Position numbers and translations under genes: made by a program. Below, piece by piece: positions 1-48,408 of a stretch of DNA of 48,408 nucleotides. Numbering within the stretch: the first letter of the stretch is position 1; each line of letters starts with the position of its first letter. Source of the stretch: a virus; IMG/VR virus record IMGVR_UViG_3300018080_000036, positions 1-48,408 of that record. The stretch is one strand, 5' to 3'. Below the pieces are notes generated by a model, which was given only the letters and a program-made list of their open reading frames with translations, was not told the origin of the DNA and ran no database searches.

Positions 1-123
1 AAAGTAGTATCAATCTCTACAGCACTAATGCTAACATTAACATCTCCAGCACTTCCGCTAGGAGTTACTCTAGGCACTGAATTACTATAATTAGAAATAA
101 GCAGTAAACCTAATACAATCAAT
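1..123. repeat. Terminal direct repeat, left copy
   Basis: These 123 bases are identical to the last 123 bases of the window. The overlap lies inside one reading frame that continues from one copy into the other, so the contig closes into a circle of about 48,285 bp. A repeat this short is equally compatible with an assembler overlap on a circular or circularly permuted genome and with a genuine short terminal redundancy. Confidence 0.97.
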
Positions 124-161
124 GTACTAACTAATACACAACTCCAAGATTTTCTATTCAT
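1..161 (-). CDS. 5' end of the 1,213-aa secreted beta-helix protein (continues at 48408)
   Basis: This is the N-terminal part of the gene annotated at 44805-48408; the frame runs through the circular junction. The proposed start is the ATG at 161, giving a protein that begins MNRKSWSC followed by a hydrophobic stretch of about 15 residues and a polar NYSNS region, which is a textbook export signal. A second in-frame ATG at 173 overlaps the stop of the upstream 821-aa gene and would add four residues (MSDS). Neither has a strong ribosome site, so translation is probably coupled to termination of the upstream gene (stop at 166-168). Confidence 0.85.
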   Translation of the reverse strand, partial: MNRKSWSCVLVSTLIVLGLLLISNYSNSVPRVTPSGSAGDVNVSISAVEIDTT

Positions 162-165
162 ACTA

Positions 166-2631
166 TCACTCATAGTAAAATGTAACAGTTACACTTCCAG
201 AATCTGGTGTGAAGGTGTTAGTAGTATATAATCTAGCACCTACTAGATCACCCACCCTGAAAGCACTATTAGGGTGAATTATATGCTTTAGCTGTCTATC
301 CTCACCAACGTCTAGCCAACCATAGTATCTATAAGCTCCAGTAATGGTTGTAGATAGATAGTCATTATACAATGGAAATATCTTTAACTTACCTGAAGTA
401 ACTGTCTCAGAATAATATACGGCCATAGATAATAGTTTGCCATTACATGGAGAGTAGAATTTAGTACCCAGGGAACCTTCAAAGTACATATCTATGGCCG
501 TAGTTTGACTGTCGGGGACAATAGGATAGGTGAATGTTAAAGTCTTAGCTTCAACAAAAGAAATACCGTCTGTTAAGGGTAGATCACTACTATCAGCATC
601 AAAGTAATAATCAACATGACTTGTACCAGTAGCAAAAACCTGATTATTGTAGTGGTTACCTAGAGAAAAGGAACTGTAGCAAATATCCCCTAATAGATTA
701 AAGCCGGTATTATACTGATTTCTAGAGTTATTGTTTAATATACTTCCACCTATAACAACCCCACCACTTGGAATATTAATCCCCATATCCTGGAATAGAT
801 CACTACTATCATTGAGGGTATTATAGAATTCATTGTCACTTATCCTGCCACTAGCTAATCCCAATAAATGTAAACCGGCATTAGTTTCTCCATAATTTCT
901 AGTATCCGAATCTATATCATAGTTGTTATCGTGTATAGCATTATCAACAATGTCTAGGTTTAATGGCAAAGATCTTTCTACAACAGTAACACTATCTACA
1001 TAAAATATCATAGCGGCCATATTAGCTGATACCTTTAAAGTATCATAACCATTCTTTTGTCTACCTATATATCTAAGTTTAGTCCATTGCTTATCAACAA
1101 CAGCTATAGTCTTTCCATAGACAAATTCTTCCTCACCTAGAGTTAGCTCAACTTCCCCACCACTAGGCATTACATTTATATACACATAGGCAGTAATATC
1201 ATAGACTGATTCATAATCATCATCATCTAGATTAATTAACCTCTGACCAACTCCCTCATTAGCATCATTAGTTACTACTTTTCTAGAATAGCTACCAGCA
1301 AACGAAAAATCTCCAGACCTCTCATTTGTTGTTGGAGAGCCTATATCTATCCAAGAGCTGCTATTATCTTCAAAAGAGTAATCAGTTATACTAACACTAG
1401 ACTCTATACCATTAACATAAATTCCGCTTTTCTGGCAGTAGCCTATATCATTGTCCTTAATAGTAACCCCAACAGTATTTGGTTGTACAACTATCCCATG
1501 ACCAGCAATATGATTTATATTACAGCCTTCAATACTACAATACTTAGTCCCACCCCTTACCTGAACTCCTATATTACTATCATTCTGGCCCCCGACTATC
1601 ATACAATCCTTTATTGATATATCAGTGAGTTGTCTATTGCTACCTATAAGATAATAACCATTAACTGCATAATTAGCTGTTCTAGATAGATTCGTATAAT
1701 TACCTTCTATAATAACATTCTTGACCTCCCCATTTCCACTACTTATATACATTCCATTGGTACTAGGGTAAAAGTAATTCCCTATGGCTATAAAGCCATC
1801 AACTATATAACTACTCTGACCTGGCTCTAAGTCAATACAACCTGGTCCAGCTCCTCCATAGAAGTAATTCCCAGTAACCCTTATATCTTTACCATTAACA
1901 CAGGATATACCATTTCTAGAGGCCGGAGGATCATAAGCCTCAGTTGAATCCGCCATTATAATACAGCCGGTTATGTAAATATGCTCAGGTGCAGGTGAAC
2001 CGCCTATATAAATAGCATCCCCCATATAGTTAAAGATACAATCCTTTATCCAAACATATTTAGCTCCATTACTAATATAGATACAACATTCATGCTCTGT
2101 AGCATAAGAAGCATAATCGGCAGTAGTCTGCACAAAATTAACTCCATCAATAACTACAAAGGAATCCGAATCTACCGTTATAACCTCTCTATGAGTGGTA
2201 GATACTTTAACCTGCTTTAATGTACTTTTAGCTCCTAGACCTTTTATATATTGATAAGACTTACACTGTAGTTCGGTTGTGGCTAGGTTAATAGTATCAT
2301 TAGGTATTGTTATAATCACCCCACTAGAGTCAAATGGTAATTGATAATTGGATGAATATTCGTCTAGGTTATGGTTCTCTTGTAACTTATCCAATCTAGT
2401 CTTTAGACTAGTCGCCATTTTATTGGTGCTAATAGACCCATCCTTAACACCCAAAAAGCTAGGAGACGTTTCCTCGATAGTTTCATTATCAGGGTAGTTA
2501 GTATAAATATAAGCATTCCCACCCTTTCTAGACGCGGTTATCGAAACCTGGGATTCTACTAAAGGAGCTATTAACAATATTCCTAGAGTTAATAATAACC
2601 CAATCTGTAATATAACTTTAAAAACCTTCAT
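166..2631 (-). CDS. Secreted-type beta-helix protein with inserted carbohydrate-binding-like domain (tailspike/depolymerase candidate)
   Basis: The 821-aa protein opens with a signal-peptide-like segment: MKVFK, a hydrophobic core to about residue 24, then a VES-Q cleavage-like site. Residues 105-412 and 556-690 carry the short repeats typical of right-handed parallel beta-helices (NGIxV, GIYV, I-x-G-N-x-I), the fold of pectate lyases and phage tailspikes. Residues 415-552 form a separate module (YSFED... ITAYVYINV... IFYVDSVTV) resembling CBM4/9-type jelly-roll carbohydrate binders. The last 130 residues are beta-rich and unassigned. An AGGAGG seven bases before the ATG fixes the start. It lies between the 129-aa secreted protein and the 1,213-aa beta-helix protein. 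A polysaccharide-binding or degrading role is inferred from fold; catalytic residues cannot be assigned by eye. Confidence 0.8.
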   Translation of the reverse strand: MKVFKVILQIGLLLTLGILLIAPLVESQVSITASRKGGNAYIYTNYPDNETIEETSPSFLGVKDGSISTNKMATSLKTRLDKLQENHNLDEYSSNYQLPFDSSGVIITIPNDTINLATTELQCKSYQYIKGLGAKSTLKQVKVSTTHREVITVDSDSFVVIDGVNFVQTTADYASYATEHECCIYISNGAKYVWIKDCIFNYMGDAIYIGGSPAPEHIYITGCIIMADSTEAYDPPASRNGISCVNGKDIRVTGNYFYGGAGPGCIDLEPGQSSYIVDGFIAIGNYFYPSTNGMYISSGNGEVKNVIIEGNYTNLSRTANYAVNGYYLIGSNRQLTDISIKDCMIVGGQNDSNIGVQVRGGTKYCSIEGCNINHIAGHGIVVQPNTVGVTIKDNDIGYCQKSGIYVNGIESSVSITDYSFEDNSSSWIDIGSPTTNERSGDFSFAGSYSRKVVTNDANEGVGQRLINLDDDDYESVYDITAYVYINVMPSGGEVELTLGEEEFVYGKTIAVVDKQWTKLRYIGRQKNGYDTLKVSANMAAMIFYVDSVTVVERSLPLNLDIVDNAIHDNNYDIDSDTRNYGETNAGLHLLGLASGRISDNEFYNTLNDSSDLFQDMGINIPSGGVVIGGSILNNNSRNQYNTGFNLLGDICYSSFSLGNHYNNQVFATGTSHVDYYFDADSSDLPLTDGISFVEAKTLTFTYPIVPDSQTTAIDMYFEGSLGTKFYSPCNGKLLSMAVYYSETVTSGKLKIFPLYNDYLSTTITGAYRYYGWLDVGEDRQLKHIIHPNSAFRVGDLVGARLYTTNTFTPDSGSVTVTFYYE

Positions 2632-2642
2632 CTATCAACCTC

Positions 2643-3032
2643 CTAGTTTCCAGGCAACCATCTAGTTCCCATCACCCAACATTTACCTGTACCTGAGACA
2701 GTATAAATCTCCATTCTCCTTAAAGGCGTATCCGATTCAAAGCCATAAGACATACCTATAAACAACGGCCCCCAGTCATCATCGTCCCAACTTGTAGTAT
2801 CTGGTGCACCAAACTTCACCCAACAATCAACAGTATCAACTACTATAGTAGCAGTAACCCAAGGAGTAGACCAAGTAGTATCTAAGTGTGTAGTACTAAT
2901 ATCAAATTCTTGTACTTGCCAATATAGCTGCCTAGGAGTCGCAGCTAAACCTCTAACTCCAACAGTCAACAACCAAACAATAGCTCCAACAATAAGGAAG
3001 CTATACATAATCCAAATAGTATATCTCTTCAT
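2643..3032 (-). CDS. Small secreted protein of unknown function
   Basis: The 129-aa product starts MKRYTIWIMY, followed by a hydrophobic segment to about residue 25 and GLAA-TP, a good signal-peptidase site. The mature part of about 98 residues is rich in Trp, Asp and Thr and looks all-beta; I do not recognise a family. The start is set by AGAGG seven bases upstream, located inside the end of the TerS-like gene, so the two are tightly coupled. It is the first of four consecutive genes with export signals in the late operon, which suggests a shared extracytoplasmic role. Confidence 0.8.
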   Translation of the reverse strand: MKRYTIWIMYSFLIVGAIVWLLTVGVRGLAATPRQLYWQVQEFDISTTHLDTTWSTPWVTATIVVDTVDCWVKFGAPDTTSWDDDDWGPLFIGMSYGFESDTPLRRMEIYTVSGTGKCWVMGTRWLPGN

Positions 3033-3035
3033 TCA

Positions 3036-3611
3036 TCAACCTCTCATAATTTGTGTAATGGTCTTAAAGCCTCTATTGTTATCCTCAATAATTTCCCCAG
3101 ATATTTCTATAGCCTCCCTTTTAGCCTGACTTCTTCTTTCCTCTCTAATCTTCTCAGCTCTACTATGAACTTCTCTAAGAAAATCAGCATCAACTTTAGT
3201 TTCCCTTTTATCAATTTCAAGTTTAGCCTTAGGCTTACCCAAAGCTCTATCAACCATAGTTTGAGCATGACCTAATTTAACTACCATAGGAACCTTATCA
3301 GTATCATCTTCCAATAAGGCCTTCTCAATCACATCCAAAGAAAGTTCACCAATAGCATTAATTCTTTCCTGCATCAGAGCCGCATCATCATCCCTTAAGG
3401 CTTGCAACCTTCCTAGCTCTTGTCTTCCTAACTCAGACCCCAGTACATTATATACAGTCTGTGGCTCTATCTCCAAGGCTACTGCTATTTCCTTAGGCTT
3501 ATAAGCTAAATTAGCTAGTCTTATAATTTCCTTATGTATAAAACTCAATCTAGCTAAACTATAACAGCTATTAACAACCCTATTACCTTCCATGTCCTCT
3601 ATATAAGGCAT
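3036..3611 (-). CDS. Probable small terminase subunit (HTH protein)
   Basis: This is the first gene of the leftward late operon, 50 bases below the predicted start point of a near-consensus promoter. The 191-aa protein has a helix-turn-helix at residues 38-60 (KPKEIAVALEIEPQTVYNVL). Long charged helices likely to form coiled coils follow, with a Lys/Arg/Glu-rich tail. This is the layout of phage small terminase subunits: a DNA-binding head, an oligomerisation helix and a tail that contacts TerL. The large subunit lies far downstream in the same transcription direction (38545-40140), with the secreted proteins and lysis genes between, which is unusual. A late transcription regulator is the main alternative. 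The start has GGAGTTTAGATA before ATG. Confidence 0.6.
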   Translation of the reverse strand: MPYIEDMEGNRVVNSCYSLARLSFIHKEIIRLANLAYKPKEIAVALEIEPQTVYNVLGSELGRQELGRLQALRDDDAALMQERINAIGELSLDVIEKALLEDDTDKVPMVVKLGHAQTMVDRALGKPKAKLEIDKRETKVDADFLREVHSRAEKIREERRSQAKREAIEISGEIIEDNNRGFKTITQIMRG

Positions 3612-15847: not shown

Positions 15848-16120
15848 ATGAAATTAGAGAATTTAAATAAATCAATAACTCAACTAACTACTGAAGAACA
15901 ACTACAATTAGTACAAAAGATTAGGGAATCTAGACTTAGAGTAAAGGCAGTATATAAGGCTTCTAACAAGAAGAAGACTAAAAAGATAATCAAACCTAAG
16001 ACTACCACAAAGAGAAAACAAAAAAAAGTAAAAAGTAAAGAGGACTTAATGTATCTAATATCCAAGATGGAGGAAATGGTAAATGAGCAAAGAACAAATC
16101 AACCATCAGGCAGTAACTGA
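15848..16120 (+). CDS. Small highly basic protein (90 aa)
   Basis: The middle third is a Lys/Arg/Thr-rich tract (SNKKKTKKIIKPKTTTKRK) between two helical ends with Leu/Ile spacing. It probably binds nucleic acid electrostatically or is a linker-type accessory. It starts shortly after the terminator with AGAGGT before the ATG, and its end overlaps the ParB-methyltransferase gene by 38 bases, so the two are co-expressed. Confidence 0.68.
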   Translation: MKLENLNKSITQLTTEEQLQLVQKIRESRLRVKAVYKASNKKKTKKIIKPKTTTKRKQKKVKSKEDLMYLISKMEEMVNEQRTNQPSGSN

Positions 16121-17540
16121 GGTACCAGAATTTAATAAGATAGCAGTTCCTAGTAAGTTGGCTAGAATAGCTATAAAGGACATCAACCCTGGTAGACGTG
16201 TTAGAGGCTCTTACGCAGGTACTAAAAAGGACTGGGATGATTTTAAGCAATCTCTAAAGGAAGAGGGTCAGATACAACCAATAACTGTTATGGAATATGA
16301 TACTCCGTTTGAGGATTTTAGATATTTTTTACTATGTGGGGGTCGTAGGATTAAGGCTCTTAAAGAACTAGAGGAAACTCAAGTAGATGCAAAGATATAT
16401 CCTCATGGACTTAACGCCTATGAGCTTAAAGCTATTGAATTATCAGAGAACCTTCATCGTAAAGATCTTACAGTAGACGAGAAAGCAGAAGCCCATAAAG
16501 ATATGTATGATTATTACATTAGTCTATATGGTAAAAAGGAGAGTACCTCTCCAAACGCCCCAGGATTATCCATCAGAGATGTAGCAAAGAAGATGAAGCT
16601 GGATAAGATGACCTTAATAAACAGTTTGAAAATAGCTAAAATATTTGAGGATGTTCCTGAGGCTAAGGGAAAGATTAAAACAGATGCGGAAGCTTTATCT
16701 TTGCTCAAAAGGGCAGAGAAAACAGTAAGAATAGAAAAAGAATCAAAAGAAGCTCGTGAGAAGTTAACTAATTCTACTGAGGATAGAGCTAAAGAAACCA
16801 TTATGGGAAGTTATATAGTAAACGAAGGTGGGTTTTTAGCTTACGCTAAATCTCTAAAGGATGAGTCCTTTGACCTTTGTAACTTTGATCCAGATTACCC
16901 TAATGCTTCAAAAGACTTCGGTGGACAGCACACCTCCTCAGTTACCTCAATTACCTTAGGTCATTATAGCACTATAAATCCAGAGAACTTCGAGGGATTT
17001 TTTAAATCCTGTCTTAAGGAAATCTATAGAATACTAAGACCAAATTCCTGGTTAATAGTATGGTTTGGCTATGAATACTTTCAGAGAATCTTAGACTGGG
17101 CTAAAGAGACCAAGTTTGAGGTGCACTATAATCACGGTAAGTGGCTGAAGATTAGTAAAGCGGAGTTTGTTGTAAGTCATACTAGAAACCCACATAGATT
17201 TCTGGGACACTCCATAGAACCTTTCTTCTACTTTAAAAAAGGTTCTGCCACTATCCAGAAACCTCACCACGATACCTATATGCACCTACCAGATCCTCCA
17301 AATAAAAGGATAAACCAATACCAAAAGCCTATCCAACTCATGCAGGAAATATATGACACCTTCTTATTACCAGCACAGAGGATTATATCTCCATGCACTG
17401 GTAGTGGATGTGATATATTAGCTGCTATTAACACTGGTAGATTCGCTGTTGGATGTGATACATCTAAAACTCAAAAAGAAGCCTTCAAGCATAGAGTATT
17501 AACTCAACCGATAGCTCAGTATAAATCTTGGGAGCAATAA
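16083..17540 (+). CDS. ParB-like domain fused to a DNA methyltransferase
   Basis: The 485-aa protein has an N-terminal ParB/Srx module: CGGRRIKALKEL (85-96), ENLHRKDLT (122-130) and an HTH (162-183, SIRDVAKKMKLDKMTLINSL). Residues 240-470 are a DNA amino-methyltransferase with motif IV DPDY (269-272, a variant of DPPY), HSIEPFFYFKK (376-386), KPIQLM (415-420) and motif I SPCTGSG (436-442). The motif order IV to I is that of beta-class enzymes. The ParB part could bring the methylase to DNA sites; protection against host restriction is the likely role. Activity of the variant motifs is uncertain. TGGAGG is nine bases before the ATG. ParB-MTase fusions occur in other phages and plasmids. Confidence 0.85.
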   Translation: MSKEQINHQAVTEVPEFNKIAVPSKLARIAIKDINPGRRVRGSYAGTKKDWDDFKQSLKEEGQIQPITVMEYDTPFEDFRYFLLCGGRRIKALKELEETQVDAKIYPHGLNAYELKAIELSENLHRKDLTVDEKAEAHKDMYDYYISLYGKKESTSPNAPGLSIRDVAKKMKLDKMTLINSLKIAKIFEDVPEAKGKIKTDAEALSLLKRAEKTVRIEKESKEAREKLTNSTEDRAKETIMGSYIVNEGGFLAYAKSLKDESFDLCNFDPDYPNASKDFGGQHTSSVTSITLGHYSTINPENFEGFFKSCLKEIYRILRPNSWLIVWFGYEYFQRILDWAKETKFEVHYNHGKWLKISKAEFVVSHTRNPHRFLGHSIEPFFYFKKGSATIQKPHHDTYMHLPDPPNKRINQYQKPIQLMQEIYDTFLLPAQRIISPCTGSGCDILAAINTGRFAVGCDTSKTQKEAFKHRVLTQPIAQYKSWEQ

Positions 17541-20025: not shown

Positions 20026-20034
20026 AAGGTAACT

Positions 20035-35954: not shown

Positions 35955-36246
35955 TTTTGTTCTCCTCATTTTGTGCTATTAATATTTCTCTTCTTACTTT
36001 AATTAAATTAAGTAACCACCTCATATTACTCAGTTCCCCCCTTATAAACATAGTCTGTTCATTCGACATTGGCTCTAAAGAACCTTTACTATCTTCATAA
36101 AAACCAGACTCTAGCTCCATTCTCTGGGTAGCTTGTCTAATTAATAATTCATTAACTATAGCCTTCCATACAGGCTCCTCTTCAAAACTATTTAAACTTT
36201 CTAGTTCAACCGCATCCAACCTTAAAGTATCATCCTGCACTAACAT
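35947..36246 (-). CDS. Small helical protein between portal and scaffold (99 aa)
   Basis: It is an acidic, helical protein (VWKAIVNELLIRQATQRMELE; WLLNLIKVRREILIAQ). AGGAGG five bases before the ATG lies within the end of the portal gene (17-base overlap), and its stop overlaps the scaffold start by eight bases. It is probably a head-assembly accessory. No family named. Confidence 0.65.
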   Translation of the reverse strand: MLVQDDTLRLDAVELESLNSFEEEPVWKAIVNELLIRQATQRMELESGFYEDSKGSLEPMSNEQTMFIRGELSNMRWLLNLIKVRREILIAQNEENKNV

Positions 36247-38197
36247 CCTGTCCTCCTAACTCAGCTAAAGATACCAAATTGCCTTTACTTACCTGGTTAT
36301 TAATTTCCTGATCACCAGCTACTCTAGATGTTATATTATTACTTACCTTCCTAAAATCAGAAGCATTATGTGCACCCATCAATCTAGCTATATGTAACCA
36401 TATTCTTGTAAAGTTTAACTCTTTAAACACCTCCGGAGACTTACTCGCAATAGTAAGTAAACTTGTCCAAGTATCCGCATATTCACCAGATGGTATAGTT
36501 CCATCCTGAATAACTACATCATAATCTACATCTAAGTTATCCAAGGAAACATAAGCACTGGTATTGCCTAATCTATCAACAGATATTTCTCTAGCTACAT
36601 CAGAATATTCGGCAGACAACTCAGCTGCATAATCACCAAGTATCTTTACCCTTTGCTCTCCCTCCATAAACTGTAAGGTATTAGAGGCCATTTGATAGGC
36701 TATACTATAATTAGCCTGCATAGCGGCTATCTTAGCATCCTTCTCATGCCTTCCTAATAGGGCAGACATAGTACCTCTAGCCTCGGCTGAGGAAACTCTC
36801 TCACCCCGTCTATTTTGTATACCTCTAGCTTGATCACTAGTACCCATAGAGCTATCCGCCATACCTCTAAGAAAGCCAATATCAGATATATTATTTTGTG
36901 TAATGTCCTTAATATCCAATTGTTTAACTGCCTGATCCATCATAGACCTACCCCAAGCCTGTGGTCTAAGCCTAGCTAACAACCCAGCTCTAGAGTCCAT
37001 AAAGTCATTTATATTAATTAAACTAGGATCAATTAATAGCATATTATTAACAGTCTTCCTAATTGCTGATACATGAGTACCCCACAACCAGTCCATACCG
37101 TGTTGAATAGGATACTCAATTTCAAGAATAGACGGATTTATCAGAGAATGTCCATCATTTCTTATAGAACATACAGCTATAGGAATACCTCCATGATCAA
37201 GCTCCACTGGATTAGCCGCTATAATCAAACTGTCAGCAGCTAAAGCAAATCTCCATAACTCTGGGGTAGTAGACCTACCTAAGCCAAGATCCTTCGGAAT
37301 TATTGTACAGTAGCACCAGATAACATCTATAGGCTTACTAGCCATAAAGGAGGCTGGTCTATTATCAGGATTAACATTAGTCTTAGCATATCTACCAGAT
37401 TCCACATTTGAATTATAGTATTGAGATTTCCCATTAGATATTTTTTCTAAATATCTTATATTAAAGAAGCTAGAATCCAAAGACTCTAGATTAAATAACC
37501 TACTATAATTCCTTCTATCAACCCAGGCAAAATATTCCATATCCTCCGTATTCCAGATAGGTACATGAATATCTGGATAACTATTATATGGATCAAGATT
37601 CCTTAATCTATTACCCTGATATTTAACAACTTCTTTTCTAATACCATTTCTAGTCTTAGTACCTAATGTCTTCTCAAAGTTTACAGCTACCGCTCCAAAT
37701 GAATAGGTAATATCATCACTCCACATAGTATGTAGATTAAGGCCCATTCTAGCTTTAACAACCTGCTGCTGTATTAAAGACTCCAGTAGTATAACCCCTA
37801 ACGTATCATTTGGGTCTCCACTAGGCTCATATCTAAATATAGGCTGTCTTAAAAAGGCGGAGGCATTATAGGTCAATAAAACCTCCTTAGTAGCATAACT
37901 TTGAGGAATTACTATAGTCAAAGGTTTCTCAGGATTACTTTCCTTTAACTGTTGTTCATAAGTAGATAAATCTATAAATCCATTAACCTTCTTATCTAAC
38001 TCAGCCCAATTACCATATCTTCTCTGCATTACATTGTGAGATTCTCTAACACACTCTAAGATATGCTTAACAATTGCTCTATGGGCGTCCTTATTAGGGT
38101 TTAAGCTTAAACCCTTTGGATATTTATTAGCATAATAATAATCAAAATTCTTACCTACAAATCTATCCTGCTGCTTATATTCTCCAAGTATAGACAC
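36230..38197 (-). CDS. Portal protein
   Basis: The 655-aa protein has the size and order of podovirus portals. It has an N-terminal helical wing (residues 20-110), a beta-rich core that includes YSFGAVAVNFEKTLG and NRLRNLDPYNSYPD, a helix around PIQHGMDWLWGTHVSAIRKTVNNML (the stem/crown region), and a C-terminal segment with KAIAAMQANYSIAYQMAS-like helices. It follows a fibre-repeat protein gene and precedes the scaffold. The GTG start is preceded by AAGGAG. Two nearby residues of low-complexity composition (Ser-rich) are unremarkable. Confidence 0.85.
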   Translation of the reverse strand: MSILGEYKQQDRFVGKNFDYYYANKYPKGLSLNPNKDAHRAIVKHILECVRESHNVMQRRYGNWAELDKKVNGFIDLSTYEQQLKESNPEKPLTIVIPQSYATKEVLLTYNASAFLRQPIFRYEPSGDPNDTLGVILLESLIQQQVVKARMGLNLHTMWSDDITYSFGAVAVNFEKTLGTKTRNGIRKEVVKYQGNRLRNLDPYNSYPDIHVPIWNTEDMEYFAWVDRRNYSRLFNLESLDSSFFNIRYLEKISNGKSQYYNSNVESGRYAKTNVNPDNRPASFMASKPIDVIWCYCTIIPKDLGLGRSTTPELWRFALAADSLIIAANPVELDHGGIPIAVCSIRNDGHSLINPSILEIEYPIQHGMDWLWGTHVSAIRKTVNNMLLIDPSLININDFMDSRAGLLARLRPQAWGRSMMDQAVKQLDIKDITQNNISDIGFLRGMADSSMGTSDQARGIQNRRGERVSSAEARGTMSALLGRHEKDAKIAAMQANYSIAYQMASNTLQFMEGEQRVKILGDYAAELSAEYSDVAREISVDRLGNTSAYVSLDNLDVDYDVVIQDGTIPSGEYADTWTSLLTIASKSPEVFKELNFTRIWLHIARLMGAHNASDFRKVSNNITSRVAGDQEINNQVSKGNLVSLAELGGQDVSAG

Positions 38198-38212: not shown

Positions 38213-38545
38213 TTAAGGGGTTACCCAGATTACATCATAATCACTATCTGATTGTTTAGTCAAAACCTGTCCAGTAAGCCCTCCAGAAGGAAGCTCATGT
38301 ATAGTCCTCCACTCTAAATCATAATCATCGTCAGAGGCTTTAACCAAAACCTGTCCAGTAGTACCACCAGCTGGAATATTATGAGCACCTCCCTCTAAAT
38401 CAACCAGTCTCACCAAATGATTATCACTACTAGGAGCTTTAGTAAATTCAGTATCTCCATCAAAACTCAAAGTGGGTGTTGGCGTAACCTCATCATCAAA
38501 AGTAAAGGCACCAAACCCAGGAAGTATTAAAGTCCTTATTGCCAT
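38213..38545 (-). CDS. Small fibre-repeat protein (GQVL repeat)
   Basis: The 110-aa protein contains two tandem repeats, PAGGTTGQVLVKASDDDYD and PSGGLTGQVLTKQSDSDYD, ending in a Trp. These are the typical repeat of phage fibre and head-fibre proteins. The ATG at 38545 overlaps the TerL stop (TAATG) after GGAGG; a TTG at 38560 in the same frame lies within that site. It may trimerise as a fibre base or connector. Confidence 0.72.
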   Translation of the reverse strand: MAIRTLILPGFGAFTFDDEVTPTPTLSFDGDTEFTKAPSSDNHLVRLVDLEGGAHNIPAGGTTGQVLVKASDDDYDLEWRTIHELPSGGLTGQVLTKQSDSDYDVIWVTP

Positions 38546-40140
38546 TATACAGACCTCCAAGACATATTAAGTATCGGCTCATTATCCAAATCAGCAAACT
38601 CTTCCTCTATCATTTCAGCTGTCTCTTCATCAAGAGAGCTACTAGAATTCATATACCTCAAACCTAATTCAAGCATCTGAGGAACATAACCCGCACAGTC
38701 AAGCACATCCCATCTTTTAGGTCTTGGGAAGGATAGCTCTTGAGCTTCCAACTCAGCACAGGCATTATAATTGTGATATATAAGTCCTTGCTGATACAAC
38801 GGAATAATCCCTCTCGCACGTCCGACTTTAGCATTATCTCCACTAAACTCTCCTTTACCTGATCTAGCTTCTAATTCTATAAAGTTTAAATAGGTCAGGT
38901 TATTCATAACCATATAGTTTCTAATTGGATAAGTTATATGTTCCTCTAATCCAGTAACCTCTACACCAAAGGATGTAGCTCCATACTGTTTACATAGATT
39001 AAACAACGTACTATATAATTCGTTCGGAGTTACCCTTTTACCAATAGCTAATCTAAAATATATAGACCTTCTTTCTACATCAACTGATACCACCAAAAAC
39101 CCAGATTCAGCTGATGACAGTTTCTTAGTCTTAGCTGGATCACATATTACGAAGGTTTCTAAATATCTAAGCCTACTCACAAAACCTAGATCATCTTCAT
39201 GATAGTATCTAAAGTTTCCTAGAAACTCATTATCCTCTCTAGAGGTAGCCTGACAACCAAGCTCTCTAGCCAACAAATCCATTTGCCCTCTTCGTCTATG
39301 AGCTTCTACCTCTTTATCTAATTCCTCTTGTGTTAAGAAGCCTTCATCTACAGTAACATACTTACCTTTATCATCAGTAGTATAAGCTGGTATACTTATA
39401 TTCTCCCAATCAGGATCATCCTTTAGATGTGTTATTAGAGCATCTTCATGTTTAACTGTGTCAATATATATTATCTTATAGTTACCAGTATATCTATTAA
39501 CAGTCTTCAACAATGCCCCAAAGAACCAATTCATTAACTTTTCTCTTTGACGTTCATTCTCTACCTCTTCATCATTTTCAAGGTCATCAATGATCCAAAG
39601 GTCTGGCCTATATCTTATCCACTTCAAACCTCTAACCTGCTGTCCAGCACCTCTAGGCAATACCAACGTTCTACCATTTGCGACCCAGGACTTTTTGGAA
39701 AAGGAGAACCTCTTCATTAACTCTTCACTTAACCCTTCCTGCCCAGCTGTTATAGACTTAAAACCTAAAGCATGTATACGCTCATTAGATAATAAATCTA
39801 ATTTAATATTCTCAGTATATAACTCAGCAGAAGAACTAGAGTTACTAAGATAACCTATAAATCTATTAGTTCCTAATATCACAGAATTCTTTACCTTAGC
39901 CTCACAGATAGTACTCTTACCAAAACCTCTAGCACCATCTATTACTATCTTCTTAGCTTCACAGTGATCTAGAGCATCAAATACTTTAAAGTGAAGTTTA
40001 GTAAAGGAAGCATAGAAGTCTTCTGGATATAGAAATTTACAGGCGTATGCTGTATCAACAGCACATCGTGCTAACACTTCCAGTCTATCATCATCGGTTA
40101 GTGTCTGCACATCATATTTATAAGGATCAAAGGTTAACAT
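38545..40140 (-). CDS. Large terminase subunit
   Basis: The 531-aa protein has Walker A GARGFGKST (69-77) and Walker B LWIIDDLE (181-188) in the ATPase half. The nuclease half has D334 (FVICDPAKT), E394 (FGVEVTGLEEH) and a C-terminal VLDCAGYVPQ, the three acidic positions of terminase nucleases. It packages DNA into the head together with the TerS-like protein at 3036. The size is usual for phage TerL. Its leader carries a very GC-rich hairpin (40161-40194). Its stop overlaps the start of the fibre-repeat gene. Confidence 0.92.
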   Translation of the reverse strand: MLTFDPYKYDVQTLTDDDRLEVLARCAVDTAYACKFLYPEDFYASFTKLHFKVFDALDHCEAKKIVIDGARGFGKSTICEAKVKNSVILGTNRFIGYLSNSSSSAELYTENIKLDLLSNERIHALGFKSITAGQEGLSEELMKRFSFSKKSWVANGRTLVLPRGAGQQVRGLKWIRYRPDLWIIDDLENDEEVENERQREKLMNWFFGALLKTVNRYTGNYKIIYIDTVKHEDALITHLKDDPDWENISIPAYTTDDKGKYVTVDEGFLTQEELDKEVEAHRRRGQMDLLARELGCQATSREDNEFLGNFRYYHEDDLGFVSRLRYLETFVICDPAKTKKLSSAESGFLVVSVDVERRSIYFRLAIGKRVTPNELYSTLFNLCKQYGATSFGVEVTGLEEHITYPIRNYMVMNNLTYLNFIELEARSGKGEFSGDNAKVGRARGIIPLYQQGLIYHNYNACAELEAQELSFPRPKRWDVLDCAGYVPQMLELGLRYMNSSSSLDEETAEMIEEEFADLDNEPILNMSWRSV

Positions 40141-40597: not shown

Positions 40598-40922
40598 TAC
40601 TACTTTTCCCTGTAGACTCATCATACTCTCCATTTCTCTTACGTGTTGCTTTTTCTATATAGGCTATAGAGGTTTTTATCTCAGTTAAAGTCACCTTTAT
40701 CTCTGATATTTCTTTATCTCTATTTCTAGTGTGTTCAGCTTCCTCTTTAACATGATCATCCCTCCAAGTAAACAGCTTACCTATATCGCACTCGACCTGA
40801 GTCATTCTATAACCTACACTAATTGGAGATGGCTTGAATACACCAGTTTCTTTAATTATATAATATAGAACAATGACAATCAATACTACTGTATTCCAAT
40901 TTACTCCCTTAAACCATTCCAC
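40581..40922 (-). CDS. Membrane-anchored coiled-coil lysis protein (holin/spanin-type)
   Basis: The 113-aa protein starts with a membrane segment (residues 10-25, TVVLIVIVLYYII) and continues as a charged coiled coil (EISEIKVTLTEIKTSIAYIEKATRK) with a polar tail. This is the layout of hemolysin XhlA-type and inner-membrane spanin proteins. The start is the GTG at 40922, eight bases after AAAGGAG and 14 bases inside the lysin gene. Position next to the lysin supports a lysis role. Confidence 0.66.
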   Translation of the reverse strand: MEWFKGVNWNTVVLIVIVLYYIIKETGVFKPSPISVGYRMTQVECDIGKLFTWRDDHVKEEAEHTRNRDKEISEIKVTLTEIKTSIAYIEKATRKRNGEYDESTGKSSNVSNN

Positions 40923-41436
40923 AGCCTACTCCTTTCGGACCATTAGGTAAAAAGTTTTTCATATCTCCAATTGCTATAAAATTAGACTCTATATGTTTTG
41001 GTCCTGGCCACCTATAACCAAGTACTGAAGCTCTATCATAGTCCTTAACACATACCTCATTTCCCTGATTACCTCCTAGTGTATATACTACCTCATCCTC
41101 TAACTTAACTAAAAACCCAACATGACCCTGCCAAGCTAACTTACCTCTCTTTAATACCACAATAGATCCTATAGCCGGCTTGGAGTCTACTCCCCACTTT
41201 AGCCAACTTCTAGCATTGGGCTTATCTGTGCCCCTAAAGCCAGCCTCCTCCATTACATAGTTTACAAAGGCAGAGCACCAAGGTATTTCATCAGTAAGAC
41301 TAAGGCTACCAAATATCTTTCTAGGAACACTTTTAAGGAATTCTATAACCTTACTATTATGTCTTCTTCCAGGTATCTCCTTAACCCCAATATACTTTTT
41401 AGCAATACTTAACCAAGTTGGCTCATAGTCTAACAC
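40909..41436 (-). CDS. CHAP/NlpC-type endolysin (TIGR02594-like)
   Basis: The 175-aa protein matches the TIGR02594/CHAP group. Key features are PWCSAFVNYVMEEAG with catalytic C54, GHVGFLV with H105 and GGNQGNEV with N123. These cysteine-histidine hydrolases cut peptidoglycan peptide bonds. It has no signal sequence, so it depends on a holin. The start is a GTG six bases after AGGAG; palindromic copy 7 ends 13 bases upstream. A binding domain is absent; the C-terminal 30 residues are unassigned. Confidence 0.85.
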   Translation of the reverse strand: MLDYEPTWLSIAKKYIGVKEIPGRRHNSKVIEFLKSVPRKIFGSLSLTDEIPWCSAFVNYVMEEAGFRGTDKPNARSWLKWGVDSKPAIGSIVVLKRGKLAWQGHVGFLVKLEDEVVYTLGGNQGNEVCVKDYDRASVLGYRWPGPKHIESNFIAIGDMKNFLPNGPKGVGCGMV

Positions 41437-41475: not shown

Positions 41476-44400
41476 TTACTGTAATTCAAACAGAAATAAG
41501 TCTCTAGCCTGCTGACCCATAGTAGTACATATTATACCTTTGGTACCCTGCCTATTAACATTAAAATCAGGTTGTGCACCCTTCTCCGATAAGTAATTAA
41601 CACCATCATATAAAGTCCTCCTACTACGATTATGGAATAGTCTCTTAGCAGTCTTAGCACTCCAAGCACTTCCACTTGTAGGAATCTTTATAAACTCACC
41701 TTGACAAGTCCACCACCTATAAGAACCTCCTTGAGGAGGGTATGACCATCCAAGAGTTCCATACTTAGCAGTACTAAGATAAAAGTAGTTTGGATTAACA
41801 TCACAAGAAGTAGTACCATACTGTACCCTGAGGTAATAATCATCACTACCTCCCCTAAGCTTAAACAATGGAACCACTCTAGCATTCACAAGCGAATCAC
41901 TATTCCATGTCATGGTAGTATCGCTATCAACCAACCACTTAACAATATCACCTAACTCCAACGTTTCATCATGTCTAGCCCATATTTGGGTATTATGCTG
42001 TGGCTTTGTACAAGCAGTAATAATCCATTCATCATCATTAGCATCCATGAATACTTCATTATGCACAACTCCAACAGCGCCCATTCTTACTAAAGAAAAA
42101 TCACTTCTATTGTATATCTCTATACCATGCTCTATAGACGTGTCATCATTATCAGCATAAGAAGTACCCCAGACTACTATAATATAATCTCCACTAGGGG
42201 ACATTCTAGCATAATCCATATCATCTTCTAACTCATGACTAAAGTTACTATCAGTTCCTTTAGTACCATTAATCACATCAACAGCAAAACATACCCTATC
42301 TCCATCACCAGTTCTAGTAGCATCCACCATAAGGTATTGTCCGGCATAATCTAGATCACCCTCTTTACCAGCGTTTCCATAATCGGTGTATCCAGCCCAA
42401 CTCCAAGTTTTAAGGGTATCCAAACCATCTGCACTATTATCTAATTTAATTATCTGAACTCCAGATGTATCAATAAAATAAAAGGTAGAATCATTTTCAA
42501 AATTCTGCGTCCCACCATCAACATAGTAGCCTGCTTTAGCCCACCTGAAAGACTCCTCTAGAAAGTTATAATTCTTCAATGGATCTGTTAGATGTAACTT
42601 CCTTAATCTCTTACCATTAGAGTCAAACAACCACCTAGAATTCTTATTACTAAAAGAGGCATCACTATCCCAGTCATGCGCTACAAACATGGAACCACTA
42701 TAATTCCAATAGCAAACCTCTGGATTAAACGTCCAAGCACCTTTATATTCAGGATAGTCATAACCAGACCTAGTTATTCTAGTTATCTTCCAATTAAAAC
42801 TAACCCCATCTGGATTACTATATAAAGTAGGATTAGCCGGATCATAGTCTCCACCTGTAGCTACTTGTGGGTAGGGTAGATCATAATAACAATCTACTGG
42901 AGTATTACCAGGTACTAAATCACAATCAGGTATAAAACTATCTAGGTTAGGTGGAAACACAGGACTATGACCAGTAATACCTCCACAAGCCCAACCTATA
43001 TTATCCTCAATAACATCAGATACAGAATCTTCTTCACTAGAAGATAAAGTAACCTCTATCCTTCTACTACGTAGCACAAAATTAGTGGCTATAGCTACAC
43101 GAGGTATATCGGTTGAAGGTATAGGTGGCCAATAGGCTTCATAACATCCCATATCTACGGTAGTAGAGTTTACAGATGTACCCTCTATATCAGTCTCTGT
43201 AATACCTTCTATATAAACTCCAGTGTCTATACATGGAGATTCAGCCGATAATCTATAATTATAACTACTAGTATCTCTAAATGCTGCATAATCATTAATA
43301 CTAGTATTATCACCAGAAGCCGTCTGATAATCACCAAACTCAGACATTAGATAACCAGTACTATTATAGTAGACAACTGGATAATAAGATTTATTAGTAA
43401 AAAAGCAATTATTAGATATATCTACCTCAGGAATTGACAATGGATCAACCCTCATAGTCCAAGCAGAATGATCACAATGAACTATATTATTCTTTATCAC
43501 AGCAGCTCTATTACTGTCTATAACAGATATACCATTTCCAATAGAATCAGGCATAAAGATAGTATTGTTACATATACTATTACCTATATTCTCAGCCCAG
43601 TCTCCATGTGTCTGTATAGCTGGCCCCTCTAAATCATATAATAGGTTATGATGCACACTATTATAATTACAGGAGTTCAAGGGCTGTGCAGCTCTTATCT
43701 GAATACCAGTAGCTCCAACATCAGAGTTAGCATGTCTTACAACATTATAGGCTATCTCATTATAATCAGCTCCCCATTGCATATAGATACCATTTCCAAA
43801 AGGCCCTAGAAAGTCGCAATATTTAACTGTATTACTATCACTTTTATAAATAAACAAACCATCAGGATGGTCTCCATCACAGGCCTCACTAAGATCACAC
43901 TCATATAAAGTATTATGATTAGCTTCCTCAAACTTCACCAAACTTCCCCAATAGTCAACCTGTCTCCTATTACCAGTAATTACACATCTATTAAATTCTA
44001 TATATCTAGTACTTCCAGCTGATCCATACACCTTCACTAATTCAGCCGAGGTGCCCTCTCTCATAAGACAATCATAGAAGGTGATATGGTGGCCACCAGT
44101 AAATACCATAACATTAGCTCCCCAGCTAGCGTCTCCAAACAGTCTAAACTCGAGGTCATAAAGTTCTATATAACCTCCACCAATCCTACACCCAATTGCC
44201 TCGTCCTCTATATCAATAACTACTCCAGAGGTATCAGGATCACCACTATCTAACTTTAAATAAACAGTACTAAAACCAAGACCATCTTTATCACAATAAT
44301 CAAAGTCATTAACATCCATATCACCTAAAAGGGTATCAGAAACACAAGCTGTAGTATCAACCCATACCTGACCTGGGTCATCTATAGATGGATCCCCACC

Positions 44401-44796
44401 TCCAGTTAACTGTATATAATAAACTGTAGTACCACTATCACTTAATATCCACTCATAGGTAGTAGATGGGTTACCTAATATAGCACCACTTAATACCGGC
44501 TTACCATCTGAGCTATCTCCATAGGCATTAACAGTAATCAAACTATCAGCTGAACCCTCATCAGTCCAAAACTGCAGTTCATCCTGTCTCCACTCCTCCC
44601 CATATTTAAAGGATATAGTATCAGCCTTACCGAAACTGCTATTTGTTACCTTACTAACTGTTTTCCAAGCCTTCACCTCAGACAGTCCAGTGCTATCATC
44701 ACTACCTCCTGTATAATCTACATAGTAGTGCAACCCTGTAGCTAAACCAGTTTGTAAGCCAACTAAAGTAAATAAAACAACTAAAAGCTTCTTCAT
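41476..44796 (-). CDS. Secreted beta-helix protein with C-terminal propeller-like domain (1,106 aa)
   Basis: The protein opens MKKLLVVLFTLVGLQTGLATG, a clear export signal. HYYVDYTGGSDDSTGLSEVKAW follows, the typical start of right-handed beta-helix polysaccharide enzymes. Helix repeats (NxIxxN, GNGIYMQWG) extend to about residue 555. From about residue 630 to the end there are repeated Trp/Asp/Gly strands (LDYAGQYLMVDATRTG; YARMSPSGDYIIVVWG; HNTQIWARHDE), like a six- or seven-bladed propeller. This recalls oligogalacturonate-lyase or WD40-type folds. A dual polysaccharide depolymerase is inferred; active-site residues are not assigned. AGGAGG precedes the ATG. Confidence 0.78.
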   Translation of the reverse strand: MKKLLVVLFTLVGLQTGLATGLHYYVDYTGGSDDSTGLSEVKAWKTVSKVTNSSFGKADTISFKYGEEWRQDELQFWTDEGSADSLITVNAYGDSSDGKPVLSGAILGNPSTTYEWILSDSGTTVYYIQLTGGGDPSIDDPGQVWVDTTACVSDTLLGDMDVNDFDYCDKDGLGFSTVYLKLDSGDPDTSGVVIDIEDEAIGCRIGGGYIELYDLEFRLFGDASWGANVMVFTGGHHITFYDCLMREGTSAELVKVYGSAGSTRYIEFNRCVITGNRRQVDYWGSLVKFEEANHNTLYECDLSEACDGDHPDGLFIYKSDSNTVKYCDFLGPFGNGIYMQWGADYNEIAYNVVRHANSDVGATGIQIRAAQPLNSCNYNSVHHNLLYDLEGPAIQTHGDWAENIGNSICNNTIFMPDSIGNGISVIDSNRAAVIKNNIVHCDHSAWTMRVDPLSIPEVDISNNCFFTNKSYYPVVYYNSTGYLMSEFGDYQTASGDNTSINDYAAFRDTSSYNYRLSAESPCIDTGVYIEGITETDIEGTSVNSTTVDMGCYEAYWPPIPSTDIPRVAIATNFVLRSRRIEVTLSSSEEDSVSDVIEDNIGWACGGITGHSPVFPPNLDSFIPDCDLVPGNTPVDCYYDLPYPQVATGGDYDPANPTLYSNPDGVSFNWKITRITRSGYDYPEYKGAWTFNPEVCYWNYSGSMFVAHDWDSDASFSNKNSRWLFDSNGKRLRKLHLTDPLKNYNFLEESFRWAKAGYYVDGGTQNFENDSTFYFIDTSGVQIIKLDNSADGLDTLKTWSWAGYTDYGNAGKEGDLDYAGQYLMVDATRTGDGDRVCFAVDVINGTKGTDSNFSHELEDDMDYARMSPSGDYIIVVWGTSYADNDDTSIEHGIEIYNRSDFSLVRMGAVGVVHNEVFMDANDDEWIITACTKPQHNTQIWARHDETLELGDIVKWLVDSDTTMTWNSDSLVNARVVPLFKLRGGSDDYYLRVQYGTTSCDVNPNYFYLSTAKYGTLGWSYPPQGGSYRWWTCQGEFIKIPTSGSAWSAKTAKRLFHNRSRRTLYDGVNYLSEKGAQPDFNVNRQGTKGIICTTMGQQARDLFLFELQ

Positions 44797-44804
44797 TATT
44801 CCTC

Positions 44805-47800
44805 CTACAATACTTTATCAACTTTTATATAACTCCCAGCTAACACAGTTGAAGTCCCATTGTCAACACTTTGACCATAGTAAAACACTAATGTACCTGG
44901 AGTATTAATAGTAATAGTTCCATTTATCCTACAGTGTCCATCCTCTGTACCAACTTCCTCGTCTCTAGTTCCTAGAGCAGTGTGCCTAGCGCTTATCGCT
45001 AGAGTATCTCCAGCTGTATCTTCAAAGGATAATTGATATACCAAGCTAGTCTTAGTACAAGTGCCTCCTAAAGTAAATTTACTTCCGCCAGTTGCATCAG
45101 CATCTACAAACAACTGAGCATCAAATATATAAGTACCTCCACTCTCAGCATTAACAAACAAATTACCAATGGAAGTTACTGAGGTATCAGTGGAGTTATG
45201 TGCCGTTAAAAGTCTCTTATAACCACCTAGATTTAAGGTTAATACTTTACTAGTGTCTACTAAAATTTGATCTATAACAATATCTAAAGAATCCAAAGCT
45301 TCATCTAAAGCCTCAAAGGCCAATTGTATAGTGCTATCACTAACACTAAGTATATCGTCAAAATTGCTAGTATCTACGGATATATCCTCAGCTGTAACAT
45401 CCTCCCAATCTATAGCATCATCATCTATAGTATCATCCGCTATCTGCTCACCATCAATTTGATTAGATCCATTATCCCATCGATTAGAGCCTGCATACCA
45501 TGGTTTGCCTGTATTTAGTACTAAGCCATTATCGAGATTAACATACCCTTCACTTGTGGTTGTTAATACAAACCCAGCCCCGACATTATTCTTAAAAGCC
45601 ATTTGAGGATTTACACTACTAATGTCAAGCTTGACCGCGCAAGTATCTGTCGCTTGTGCCAAACTAGACCTACTGATATTAACGTCCGAATCCGTCCAAT
45701 AAGCGATAGGAGTTGTGCCGACTTGAGAGTATTGTGCGTATGGTTTGATAGTGCCTACTCCCACATTTCCGTCAGTATCAATTCTTATCCTTTCTTCTAA
45801 ATTAGCATAACTTGAACTAGTATTTTGAGTATAAAATCCTAAAGCGCCATTGTATGAATTTGGCCCAGCTCGTATACCTCTCACCGCTGCGTGATAAATT
45901 TCAGCCGTAGAAACACCAAATAATATTTCTGAATAATGTCCAGTTGTTGTTGAGCCACGATGTAAATACAAAGAACCATCTGATGTATCATAAATTTCAA
46001 CCTTTTTTAAAGGTACCGTCGTCCCAAACCCGACACTACCAATGAAGTAATTATTATTACTACCAGTTACACTTATTTGACTGATTGAGATTGAGTCTGG
46101 AAGTGATATTGTCGGATTTCCAGAAACTCCATCTCCATAGGTAACCTCTACTCTATAAGTAGTACCTGTTATAGTTCTTAGTACATAAGTATCAGAAGCT
46201 GTACGCGCGACTATTCCAGTAGAACTTAAATCTTCTAGTGCAGTTAGATCTCCTCCTATATAATTAGCCACAGAATCATCAAAGGCGTCCTTGTCTAACT
46301 TAGATAGAGCTTCATAATCTGTGAAAAATGTTCCAGCTGTATCAGAAAATGACGGCAACAAACTTGCTTCATAATCCGTAAACAATGATGTTCCACCTGA
46401 ACCGGTTGTATCAGATTGGGTGAAGCCCTGAGCGGCCAACATAATTGAAAATTCTGTTTCACCAACCAGGGAGTCAGGGATAGCACTATAATCTTGAGAT
46501 AAAACCCAATACCTTGTTGCATCCCACGAATTTGTATCAGAATCATCTTGTTTATAATAAATATCGTATTGAGTCGCTACCACTACAGTGTCTAACGCTC
46601 CAGCTTCTACAGCAGCTAGTTCAGCGTCAGTAGCATAATAACTACTATCATGCCCACATAAGTAATTGGCATTAAGATTAGGGCATAGAGTATTACTAGC
46701 TGGAGTAAATGGAGCAGTTCCTGGACCAACAGTAGATGCAAAGGAAGCTCCTAGTATATCAGCATAATATCCACCAGCATAGTTCCAGACACTTAGAGTA
46801 TCCTTGTTAATCGAAATATTAACTCTAGGTGTACCAGAATGGTTATTGGTTATCTTTATAACATCCGCATTAACTCCCGCTGTAGTATCAGTTACTATTT
46901 CAAAAAGATTCCCATCCTTTAAAAAGACATCTAGATCTCTAGTCCTTCTATTTCCAATTCCCTCTACATTAGCTCCAACAAAACTATTAGTTACAGAAGA
47001 CAGATTTATCTGATCAGAGGTACTATTCCATCTATTAACAGTGTTACTAATAACAACTGAATCACACTCTGATAAAGTAATACCATAAGTAGCATTAGAA
47101 TCACAAATGGTATTAGTAATAGAGACATTATCAGATAGTGTAAAAGCCAAACCACTAGCACTATTTTTATAATATCTTCCACCATTAATACCTAATATAT
47201 TTACCTCAGACCCCCCAGTACCATAGGCCCAAAGACCATTTCTATTGTTATACCCTATGCAGTTATTAACCAACACGCCTCTAGAATCAGCTAATATAGA
47301 ATAACCATCATAAGTACAATTAGATGCTATACAATCTGATAAAATAACATCATCACAGCTAGTTAAATAAAACCCTGTATTACAACTATCCACAGTTACA
47401 TGCGATAACTCAAAGTTCTCGAATTTTATATCCCCAGTTCTATTAATATAAAAGCCTATATTAGCATTCTTTATTCTAGTATTACTTATTTTGACATTAT
47501 GGATATTATTGCCATATACGTTTATGGCAGTCTTACTACTAACATTCTCCAAAAAGCAGTTATCCACAAAAACGCCATTTACATCATAAGTATCAGAAGA
47601 GGTTTCTATATCTAGAGTAGAATGAGATCCACCCTTTAGAACAGTATTAGTCAATACTATATTCTCAGTTCTTCTAGCTCCATAAGGGCCGCCAGAGCTA
47701 ATGGTAACACATGTATATCCTTTGGAGGTTAGATCACTAGCTACCTCCATTCTGCAGTTATCTATGGTCAAATCCTTACACCCATTAACATAGATACAAG

Positions 47801-48408
47801 CATTACCTGCAGTATGGTGTAAGTACATATCCCTTACTGTTACCCTCTCACAGGTACGGAACATAAACATATCATCTGATTCATGCCCATAGGTGTCTTC
47901 ACCATTCTGGTCTACTTCTCCTCCACCACATATAACTACATCGGTAAGACCATTAGCATAAACAAACTTAACTCCGTGCGTGGTATCTACCTTACTCCAG
48001 TTTATCTTACTACCTGGTGGAACTATAAGGACTGTTCCAGAGCTAAGGCCGTGCTCTACTTGACTTATATCTATAGTATCCGTGGATACCACTATTATAC
48101 CTGGGACATAGTCTACACCATCGTTCTTTAGAGTAGACATAAGATCATCATAAGCATCAGTAAAGCGGATGTCTGAATTACTAAGATACGCCTGTAATAA
48201 AACCCAGTATCTAGTAGCTATATCAGTAGTATCACCCCAAGTAATTCCTAAAGAATCAAACATATCTGATACTATAGTATTTAATAAAGTAGTATCAATC
48301 TCTACAGCACTAATGCTAACATTAACATCTCCAGCACTTCCGCTAGGAGTTACTCTAGGCACTGAATTACTATAATTAGAAATAAGCAGTAAACCTAATA
48401 CAATCAAT
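44805..48408 (-). CDS. Secreted beta-helix fibre protein (1,213 aa over the circular junction)
   Basis: The gene runs to the end of the window and continues at position 161 through the terminal repeat. After its signal peptide the protein has a beta-helix from about residue 95 to 520 (NACIYVNGCKDLTIDNC; VVISNTVNRW). It then has fibre-like repeats with DTS/AFEALDEALDSL, a module at about 772-962 with GNVGVGT-type phage-fibre signatures, and a C-terminal jelly-roll-like part (INTPGTLVFYYGQSV). The module at 772-962 differs in base composition. Tailspike or depolymerase is the likely role, but a signal peptide on a virion fibre is unusual. It follows the 821-aa gene and precedes the 1,106-aa gene by eight bases. 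Confidence 0.8.
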   Translation of the reverse strand, partial: LIVLGLLLISNYSNSVPRVTPSGSAGDVNVSISAVEIDTTLLNTIVSDMFDSLGITWGDTTDIATRYWVLLQAYLSNSDIRFTDAYDDLMSTLKNDGVDYVPGIIVVSTDTIDISQVEHGLSSGTVLIVPPGSKINWSKVDTTHGVKFVYANGLTDVVICGGGEVDQNGEDTYGHESDDMFMFRTCERVTVRDMYLHHTAGNACIYVNGCKDLTIDNCRMEVASDLTSKGYTCVTISSGGPYGARRTENIVLTNTVLKGGSHSTLDIETSSDTYDVNGVFVDNCFLENVSSKTAINVYGNNIHNVKISNTRIKNANIGFYINRTGDIKFENFELSHVTVDSCNTGFYLTSCDDVILSDCIASNCTYDGYSILADSRGVLVNNCIGYNNRNGLWAYGTGGSEVNILGINGGRYYKNSASGLAFTLSDNVSITNTICDSNATYGITLSECDSVVISNTVNRWNSTSDQINLSSVTNSFVGANVEGIGNRRTRDLDVFLKDGNLFEIVTDTTAGVNADVIKITNNHSGTPRVNISINKDTLSVWNYAGGYYADILGASFASTVGPGTAPFTPASNTLCPNLNANYLCGHDSSYYATDAELAAVEAGALDTVVVATQYDIYYKQDDSDTNSWDATRYWVLSQDYSAIPDSLVGETEFSIMLAAQGFTQSDTTGSGGTSLFTDYEASLLPSFSDTAGTFFTDYEALSKLDKDAFDDSVANYIGGDLTALEDLSSTGIVARTASDTYVLRTITGTTYRVEVTYGDGVSGNPTISLPDSISISQISVTGSNNNYFIGSVGFGTTVPLKKVEIYDTSDGSLYLHRGSTTTGHYSEILFGVSTAEIYHAAVRGIRAGPNSYNGALGFYTQNTSSSYANLEERIRIDTDGNVGVGTIKPYAQYSQVGTTPIAYWTDSDVNISRSSLAQATDTCAVKLDISSVNPQMAFKNNVGAGFVLTTTSEGYVNLDNGLVLNTGKPWYAGSNRWDNGSNQIDGEQIADDTIDDDAIDWEDVTAEDISVDTSNFDDILSVSDSTIQLAFEALDEALDSLDIVIDQILVDTSKVLTLNLGGYKRLLTAHNSTDTSVTSIGNLFVNAESGGTYIFDAQLFVDADATGGSKFTLGGTCTKTSLVYQLSFEDTAGDTLAISARHTALGTRDEEVGTEDGHCRINGTITINTPGTLVFYYGQSVDNGTSTVLAGSYIKVDKVL
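48286..48408. repeat. Terminal direct repeat, right copy
   Basis: This stretch is identical to bases 1-123 of the window and lies in the 5' part of the 1,213-aa gene. Joining the two copies restores one uninterrupted frame with a proper start codon and signal peptide. Confidence 0.97.

Follow-up and report, generated by a model that had tools for sequence, protein, structure and literature searches.

Why would a tailed phage mark a run of late spike-like proteins for export from the cytoplasm? The spikes and fibres of tailed phages are taken as cytoplasmic, virion-bound proteins. The question is raised by four consecutive late genes of a viral contig (IMG/VR record IMGVR_UViG_3300018080_000036, 48,408 nt), which was analysed over its whole length and is referred to here as the window.

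Predicted export signals in a late gene cassette

The contig carries an exact direct terminal repeat of 123 bp (48286-48408 = 1-123), giving a unique length of 48,285 bp. With the repeat collapsed, the frame of a 1213-aa protein runs uninterrupted through the junction from an ATG at 161; initiation at another in-frame ATG, at 173, would lengthen the protein to 1217 aa. The late genes lie on the minus strand in the order TerS, the genes for proteins of 129, 821, 1213 (across the junction) and 1106 aa, CHAP, two small genes, TerL, a 110-aa stub, portal and further virion genes, including the MCP gene (Table 1). The CHAP protein matches both a baseplate hub/tail lysozyme family (phrog_1259, 4.1e-33) and an endolysin family (phrog_9589, 2.5e-8). 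Elsewhere in the window, a 327-aa gene without a signal, located in the portal-MCP interval (33716-34699, minus strand), contains a WVDPANGSDSNTG motif resembling the mature start of the 1106-aa protein (YYVDYTGGSDDSTG), and ParB-like partition-protein and DNA methyltransferase matches are joined in one protein (16083-17540, plus strand).

Table 1. Late-region features of the window (TerS, terminase small subunit; TerL, terminase large subunit)
Feature	Position	Strand	Evidence and remarks
TerS	3036..3611	-	phrog_2538 5.2e-5; homologue in L001; upstream border of cassette
129-aa protein, long signal-like N-terminus	2643..3032	-	first cassette gene after TerS; orphan
821-aa beta-helix protein, signal-like N-terminus, long core	166..2631	-	Pfam Beta_helix 2.6e-10
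1213-aa beta-helix and fibre-type protein with signal, main part	44805..48408	-	Beta_helix 1.2e-14; continues at 1-161
5' end of the 1213-aa gene, containing the signal	1..161	-	start ATG 161, alternative 173
1106-aa beta-helix protein, most typical signal of the four	41476..44796	-	Beta_helix 1.1e-6
CHAP-domain protein, candidate endolysin	40909..41436	-	CHAP 3.9e-9; directly after cassette
TerL	38545..40140	-	phrog_38 2.1e-48
Stub of the non-exported fibre family, 110 aa	38213..38545	-	MA..GPF-type N-domain and linker repeats, no tip
Portal protein	36230..38197	-	portal profile A3 vs PDB 8zkk portal gp5 3.6e-101; lineage finder

Signals were scored with a home-made test combining the charge of the n-region, the hydropathy of the h-region and a von Heijne cleavage matrix; among E. 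coli proteins, the scorer passed six of six secreted ones and rejected both cytosolic ones. Exactly four of the 52 ORFs of the window passed, and these are the adjacent 129-, 821-, 1213- and 1106-aa genes, an adjacency with a chance probability of 1.9e-4. The preliminary description had reported four consecutive genes with export signals and three giant beta-helix proteins; the signals, their order and strand, and a Pfam Beta_helix match in each of the three large proteins bear this out, and signal-peptide prediction, proposed there as a check, accepted all four when done with this scorer. Each N-terminus combines a basic n-region with an uncharged hydrophobic core. None of 191 internal Met starts used as a control passed, and shuffled N-termini of the four proteins did so in 0.5-4.7% of cases each. 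A good Shine-Dalgarno sequence precedes the 129-, 821- and 1106-aa genes, while the 1213-aa gene, which starts at the stop codon of the 821-aa gene, has only a weak one.

The likeliest cleavage sites are MKRYTIWIMYSFLIVGAIVWLLTVGVRGLA/ATP in the 129-aa protein, MKVFKVILQIGLLLTLGILLIAPLVES/QVS in the 821-aa protein, MNRKSWSCVLVSTLIVLGLLLISNYSNS/VPR in the 1213-aa protein and MKKLLVVLFTLVGLQTGLA/TGLHYYVD in the 1106-aa protein, those of the 821- and 1106-aa proteins being our own reading where the matrix put a neighbouring site first. A signal-peptidase-like site had been claimed for all four; it is clear in the 1213-aa protein (matrix score 8.0) and weak in the 129-, 821- and 1106-aa proteins (4.3-4.6). 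No lipobox cysteine was found at the signal end of any of the four N-termini, and cysteine enrichment, considered as a sign of periplasmic folding, showed no difference. We regard export of the cassette proteins as highly probable from these sequence features.

Signal-bearing spikes in a podovirus-type lineage

The resemblances of the four proteins are uneven. The 1213-aa protein resembles structural proteins of cyanophage virions over residues 719-896 (best match 4e-8). It also has its helix (6e-23) and a GTAPFT..NLNA motif in common with a signal-bearing 1439-aa protein of the related contig L089, which itself matches tail spike PHROG 2234 at 2.5e-14. Directly past its signal, the 1106-aa protein resembles the secreted beta-helix glycosidase lacto-N-biosidase LnbX (9e-12 to PDB 5gqc), although only over the ~90 residues 16-104, the rest being unmatched. 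The 821-aa protein shows generic beta-helix similarity only, and searches of the PDB with the 821-, 1213- and 129-aa proteins gave no matches. For the 129-aa protein, no relatives were returned by Pfam, PHROG, viral-contig or PDB searches, nor anything significant by BLAST against the small proteins of relatives. In the relative L009, its slot holds a signal-bearing 140-aa gene. The next protein, of 1988 aa, also bears a signal and weakly matches Peptidase_S74 in its C-terminal part (7e-4, the 20.3 bits falling short of the 22-bit cut-off); TerL comes after it. The AlphaFold models of the C-terminus of the 1106-aa protein and of the mature 129-aa protein had too low a confidence to be of use (mean pLDDT of 33 and 53, respectively).

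Two contigs labelled 'Bacteriophage sp.' were dropped as phage evidence given that their other genes look bacterial: MT837212.1 (L002), the only phage-collection match to the 1106-aa protein, and MT838292.1 (L003), one match to the 1213-aa protein. Both are likely mislabelled.

Direct viral-contig searches with any of the four proteins, or with the TerL of the window alone, returned no relatives, whereas TerL and portal profiles succeeded in IMG/VR and gathered ~100 related contigs of a podovirus-type lineage. ORFs of these relatives are mechanical calls, with start sites picked partly by Shine-Dalgarno score. Portal homology and the order TerL-portal-scaffold-MCP make them podovirus-type relatives of Desulfofustis phage LS06-2018-MD01 (OP947158), the nearest named relative of the window (TerL 40%, portal 32%, MCP 36%), which has the same head-module gene order. 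We infer the podovirus tail type from portal homology and gene order because the tail-tube candidates, g261 and g544, had no PDB match. Unlike the window, the Desulfofustis phage has adjacent TerS and TerL genes, fibre-like proteins of 656 and 760 aa without signals, and one lipoprotein. A host scan yielded two MAG contigs only, neither giving a usable host; the lineage members L164 and L165 were binned into MAGs, one of them a Candidatus Micrarchaeum bin, which probably reflects binning and is not host evidence.

Among non-redundant ORFs of at least 600 aa, 15 of 115 in the portal-defined relatives bear signals, compared with none of 62 in the control set formed by the remaining TerL-defined phages (p = 0.0014). 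The signal-bearing large spike and fibre proteins of the relatives sit in the slot beside TerL, and two or three signal genes lie side by side in L090, L100 and L138. Members of tail fibre PHROG 24210 with a signal were found in L132 and L172 (PHROG 24210 match 7.9e-15). In L182, a 372-aa protein with a Peptidase_S74 domain (4.9e-9) has a hydrophobic N-terminus that the scorer rejected, and its mature start is homologous to signal-bearing proteins of L090 and L178. A tblastn search of the phage collection with four signal-bearing proteins of relatives, mature or whole, returned nothing.

Cultured phages differ in this respect. The cyanophage 'YadA-domain structural protein' and the PHROG 24210 tail fibres of HMO-2011 and pCB2047-A have C-terminal or internal fibre domains in common with the exported proteins of the lineage, yet the fibres with related domains in S-CAM22, HMO-2011, pCB2047-A and GB2A lack signals. 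No signal was found on the large fibre-like proteins of the cultured phages with related portals, i.e. Caulobacter Kuura, Microcystis Mel-JY34, Vibrio VS-ABTNL-3, Roseobacter CRP-810, Pseudomonas PaP2 and Polaromonas Tiera, nor on those of EBPR podovirus 3. The cultured homologues and the controls thus agree with the earlier statements that phage spikes normally have no export signal and that signals on them would be unusual.

The clearest recurrence is in a spike family typified by L145. When IMG/VR was searched with a profile of the first 305 residues of the mature protein, the full domain came up in 20 loci; adding the members already collected gives 21 distinct sequences, mostly of 700-1000 aa. 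All 21 have a predicted signal, that of L168 only after start correction. According to the gene maps, the first gene of at least 90 aa after the spike is TerL wherever the contig is long enough to include it. Signals are less alike between members (34% identity on average over pairs) than the 39 residues that follow them (56%), a pattern that cleavage of the signal would be expected to leave, and the conserved mature start is immediately preceded by small-x-small sites such as ASA/EFF and ANA/EFF. Most of the C-terminal parts show no relationship to one another, with a median alignment reach of 43% of length and a reach above 80% in only 25 of 420 ordered pairs. Two distant relatives lack a signal: in L186 the spike body is preceded by an N-terminal region of ~100 further residues, in the place where the exported versions have nothing but the signal, and in L187 it forms the very start of the protein. 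These predictions indicate that signals on spikes are not a one-off and recur across the podovirus-type lineage, and that some of the signal-bearing proteins belong to families of tail fibres and tail spikes that have no signal in cultured relatives.

Several further features were observed around these genes. Large GT2-like glycosyltransferase-like and B12/radical-SAM-like genes were seen by eye directly upstream of the exported spike, after TerS, in L164, L167, L168, L169, L170, L172, L175, L176, L182 and L183; their products might modify the spike or the host surface. Lipoprotein-type signals with a lipobox Cys recur on small late genes near TerL (L001 36101-36688, L004 6067-6654, L005 2363-2662, L009 2262-2783 and L010 62-268), possibly encoding spanins or exclusion proteins. 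In a small family of ~100-130 aa, the member at L110:402-800 has a signal and those of at least nine other loci have none (compared loci include L181:15189, L159:4080, L140:15266, L178:7020 and L182:8457), pointing to signal gain or loss. L060, a TerL-related IMG/VR contig outside the lineage, has three consecutive signal-like genes after its MCP-region genes (18022-21232), one of them for a YYVD-type beta-helix protein. In vir555 (BK063671.1, L198:1126-3432; listed host Methanomicrobiales), a 768-aa protein with a clear signal, encoded near a tail gene, matches a signal-bearing L090 protein in its C-terminal part only.

A non-exported fibre family in the same genomes

Many relatives encode, between TerL and portal, a fibre family that starts with MA..K..IGS.GPF.YDD. 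Its members have a conserved N-domain of ~60 residues and C-termini ranging from almost nothing up to 1400 aa, and several have hits to PHROGs for tail proteins or tail fibres. Considering this N-conserved, C-variable build and the PHROG matches, the family is probably the conventional virion fibre. None of its 37 members (the 110-aa stub of the window and 36 others) carries a signal, and a search with the conserved N-domain returned no signal-bearing protein, although the exported proteins may have a docking domain of another kind. Both this fibre and an exported protein of at least 250 aa were present in 21 loci, a few of which are the same contig counted twice. Some C-terminal domains are common to the exported and non-exported fibres of the lineage.

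Possible fates of the exported proteins

Given that ordinary phage spikes have no export signal, the cassette proteins probably do their work beyond the cell interior as infection ends. Once made, they would be exported by the host Sec translocon, signal peptidase would remove most of the signals, and the proteins would fold and be stored in the periplasm or be secreted. There, or at the cell exterior, they may attach to host surface polysaccharide or cleave it, at lysis or earlier, and so keep progeny from being trapped on cell debris or extracellular glycans, while the virion's own fibre would be the separate non-exported family. The CHAP gene and the two small hydrophobic proteins that follow the cassette fit such late timing. 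A polysaccharide-degrading function is putative, the Pfam matches being at the level of the fold. Taken as a whole, the reading that these late genes encode spike- and fibre-like proteins exported by Sec and acting mainly apart from the virion is one that we consider evenly poised.

Comparison with known systems sets the cassette apart. Podoviral beta-helix tailspikes and capsule depolymerases are likewise giant right-handed beta-helices encoded with late virion genes, but the cassette proteins have an N-terminal export signal and no recognised N-terminal virion-binding domain. Export of phage late proteins by host Sec is described for endolysins, such as fOg44 Lys44 and the SAR endolysins, in PMC6116005; there the cargo is cell-wall lytic enzymes, whereas here it would be spike and fibre proteins. 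PMC13097943 uses the absence of a signal peptide as an argument for tail-component identity, and a search of open-access literature turned up no tail fibre described as having a signal peptide.

The preliminary description had offered two fates, secreted enzymes or fibres added to the virion outside the cytoplasm. This pair still stands, and sequence alone cannot separate its members. In the second, the proteins would be exported, fold in the periplasm and attach to the tail at lysis, perhaps onto the 110-aa stub, which lacks a tip and could be a docking site for them. The L145-type family, with its conserved N-half and variable C-half, has the pattern of a virion-bound receptor-binding protein, fibre-type and S74 domains are present, and C-terminal domains are held in common with the non-exported fibres; these points count against a non-virion role. 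Set against attachment from outside are the conventional fibre family in many of the same genomes, the want of an identified docking domain on the exported proteins and of a tailed-phage precedent in the literature found. The exported proteins also lack the MA..GPF N-domain, which, together with the extra N-terminal region of L186, favours the non-virion role, and the evidence leans towards proteins without conventional virion anchoring. We therefore consider attachment from outside a doubtful but serious alternative, and its extension to the lineage, in which part of the receptor-binding apparatus would be built extracytoplasmically from Sec-exported spikes that mature in the periplasm and join the virion only at lysis, unlikely.

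The N-termini might instead stay uncleaved, either as outward-facing signal anchors in the inner membrane or as hydrophobic plugs docking the proteins in the virion. The cores of the 129-aa (~23 residues) and 821-aa (~20) proteins are of membrane-helix length, so a signal anchor is possible for these two, and their cleavage scores are low (4.3 and 4.5). However, the cores of the 1213- and 1106-aa proteins are shorter, the cleavage site of the former is the clear one, and relatives have drifted signals with classic small-x-small sites before a conserved mature start, which makes general retention of the N-termini quite improbable. Chance hydrophobic N-termini or wrong start codons on ordinary cytoplasmic tailspikes are very improbable, since, although the test is home-made and the evidence is that of sequence, internal Met starts never passed, shuffled N-termini seldom did, three of the four starts have a good Shine-Dalgarno sequence, and signals recur in every L145-type spike as well as in many of the lineage's other fibres.

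For annotators, signal-bearing beta-helix genes in phage contigs should not be filed as host contamination. If this lineage does routinely export its spikes, the proteins would have either a new assembly route or a second, free-acting use, which would be to strip away the host glycans that surround dying cells or to limit re-adsorption.
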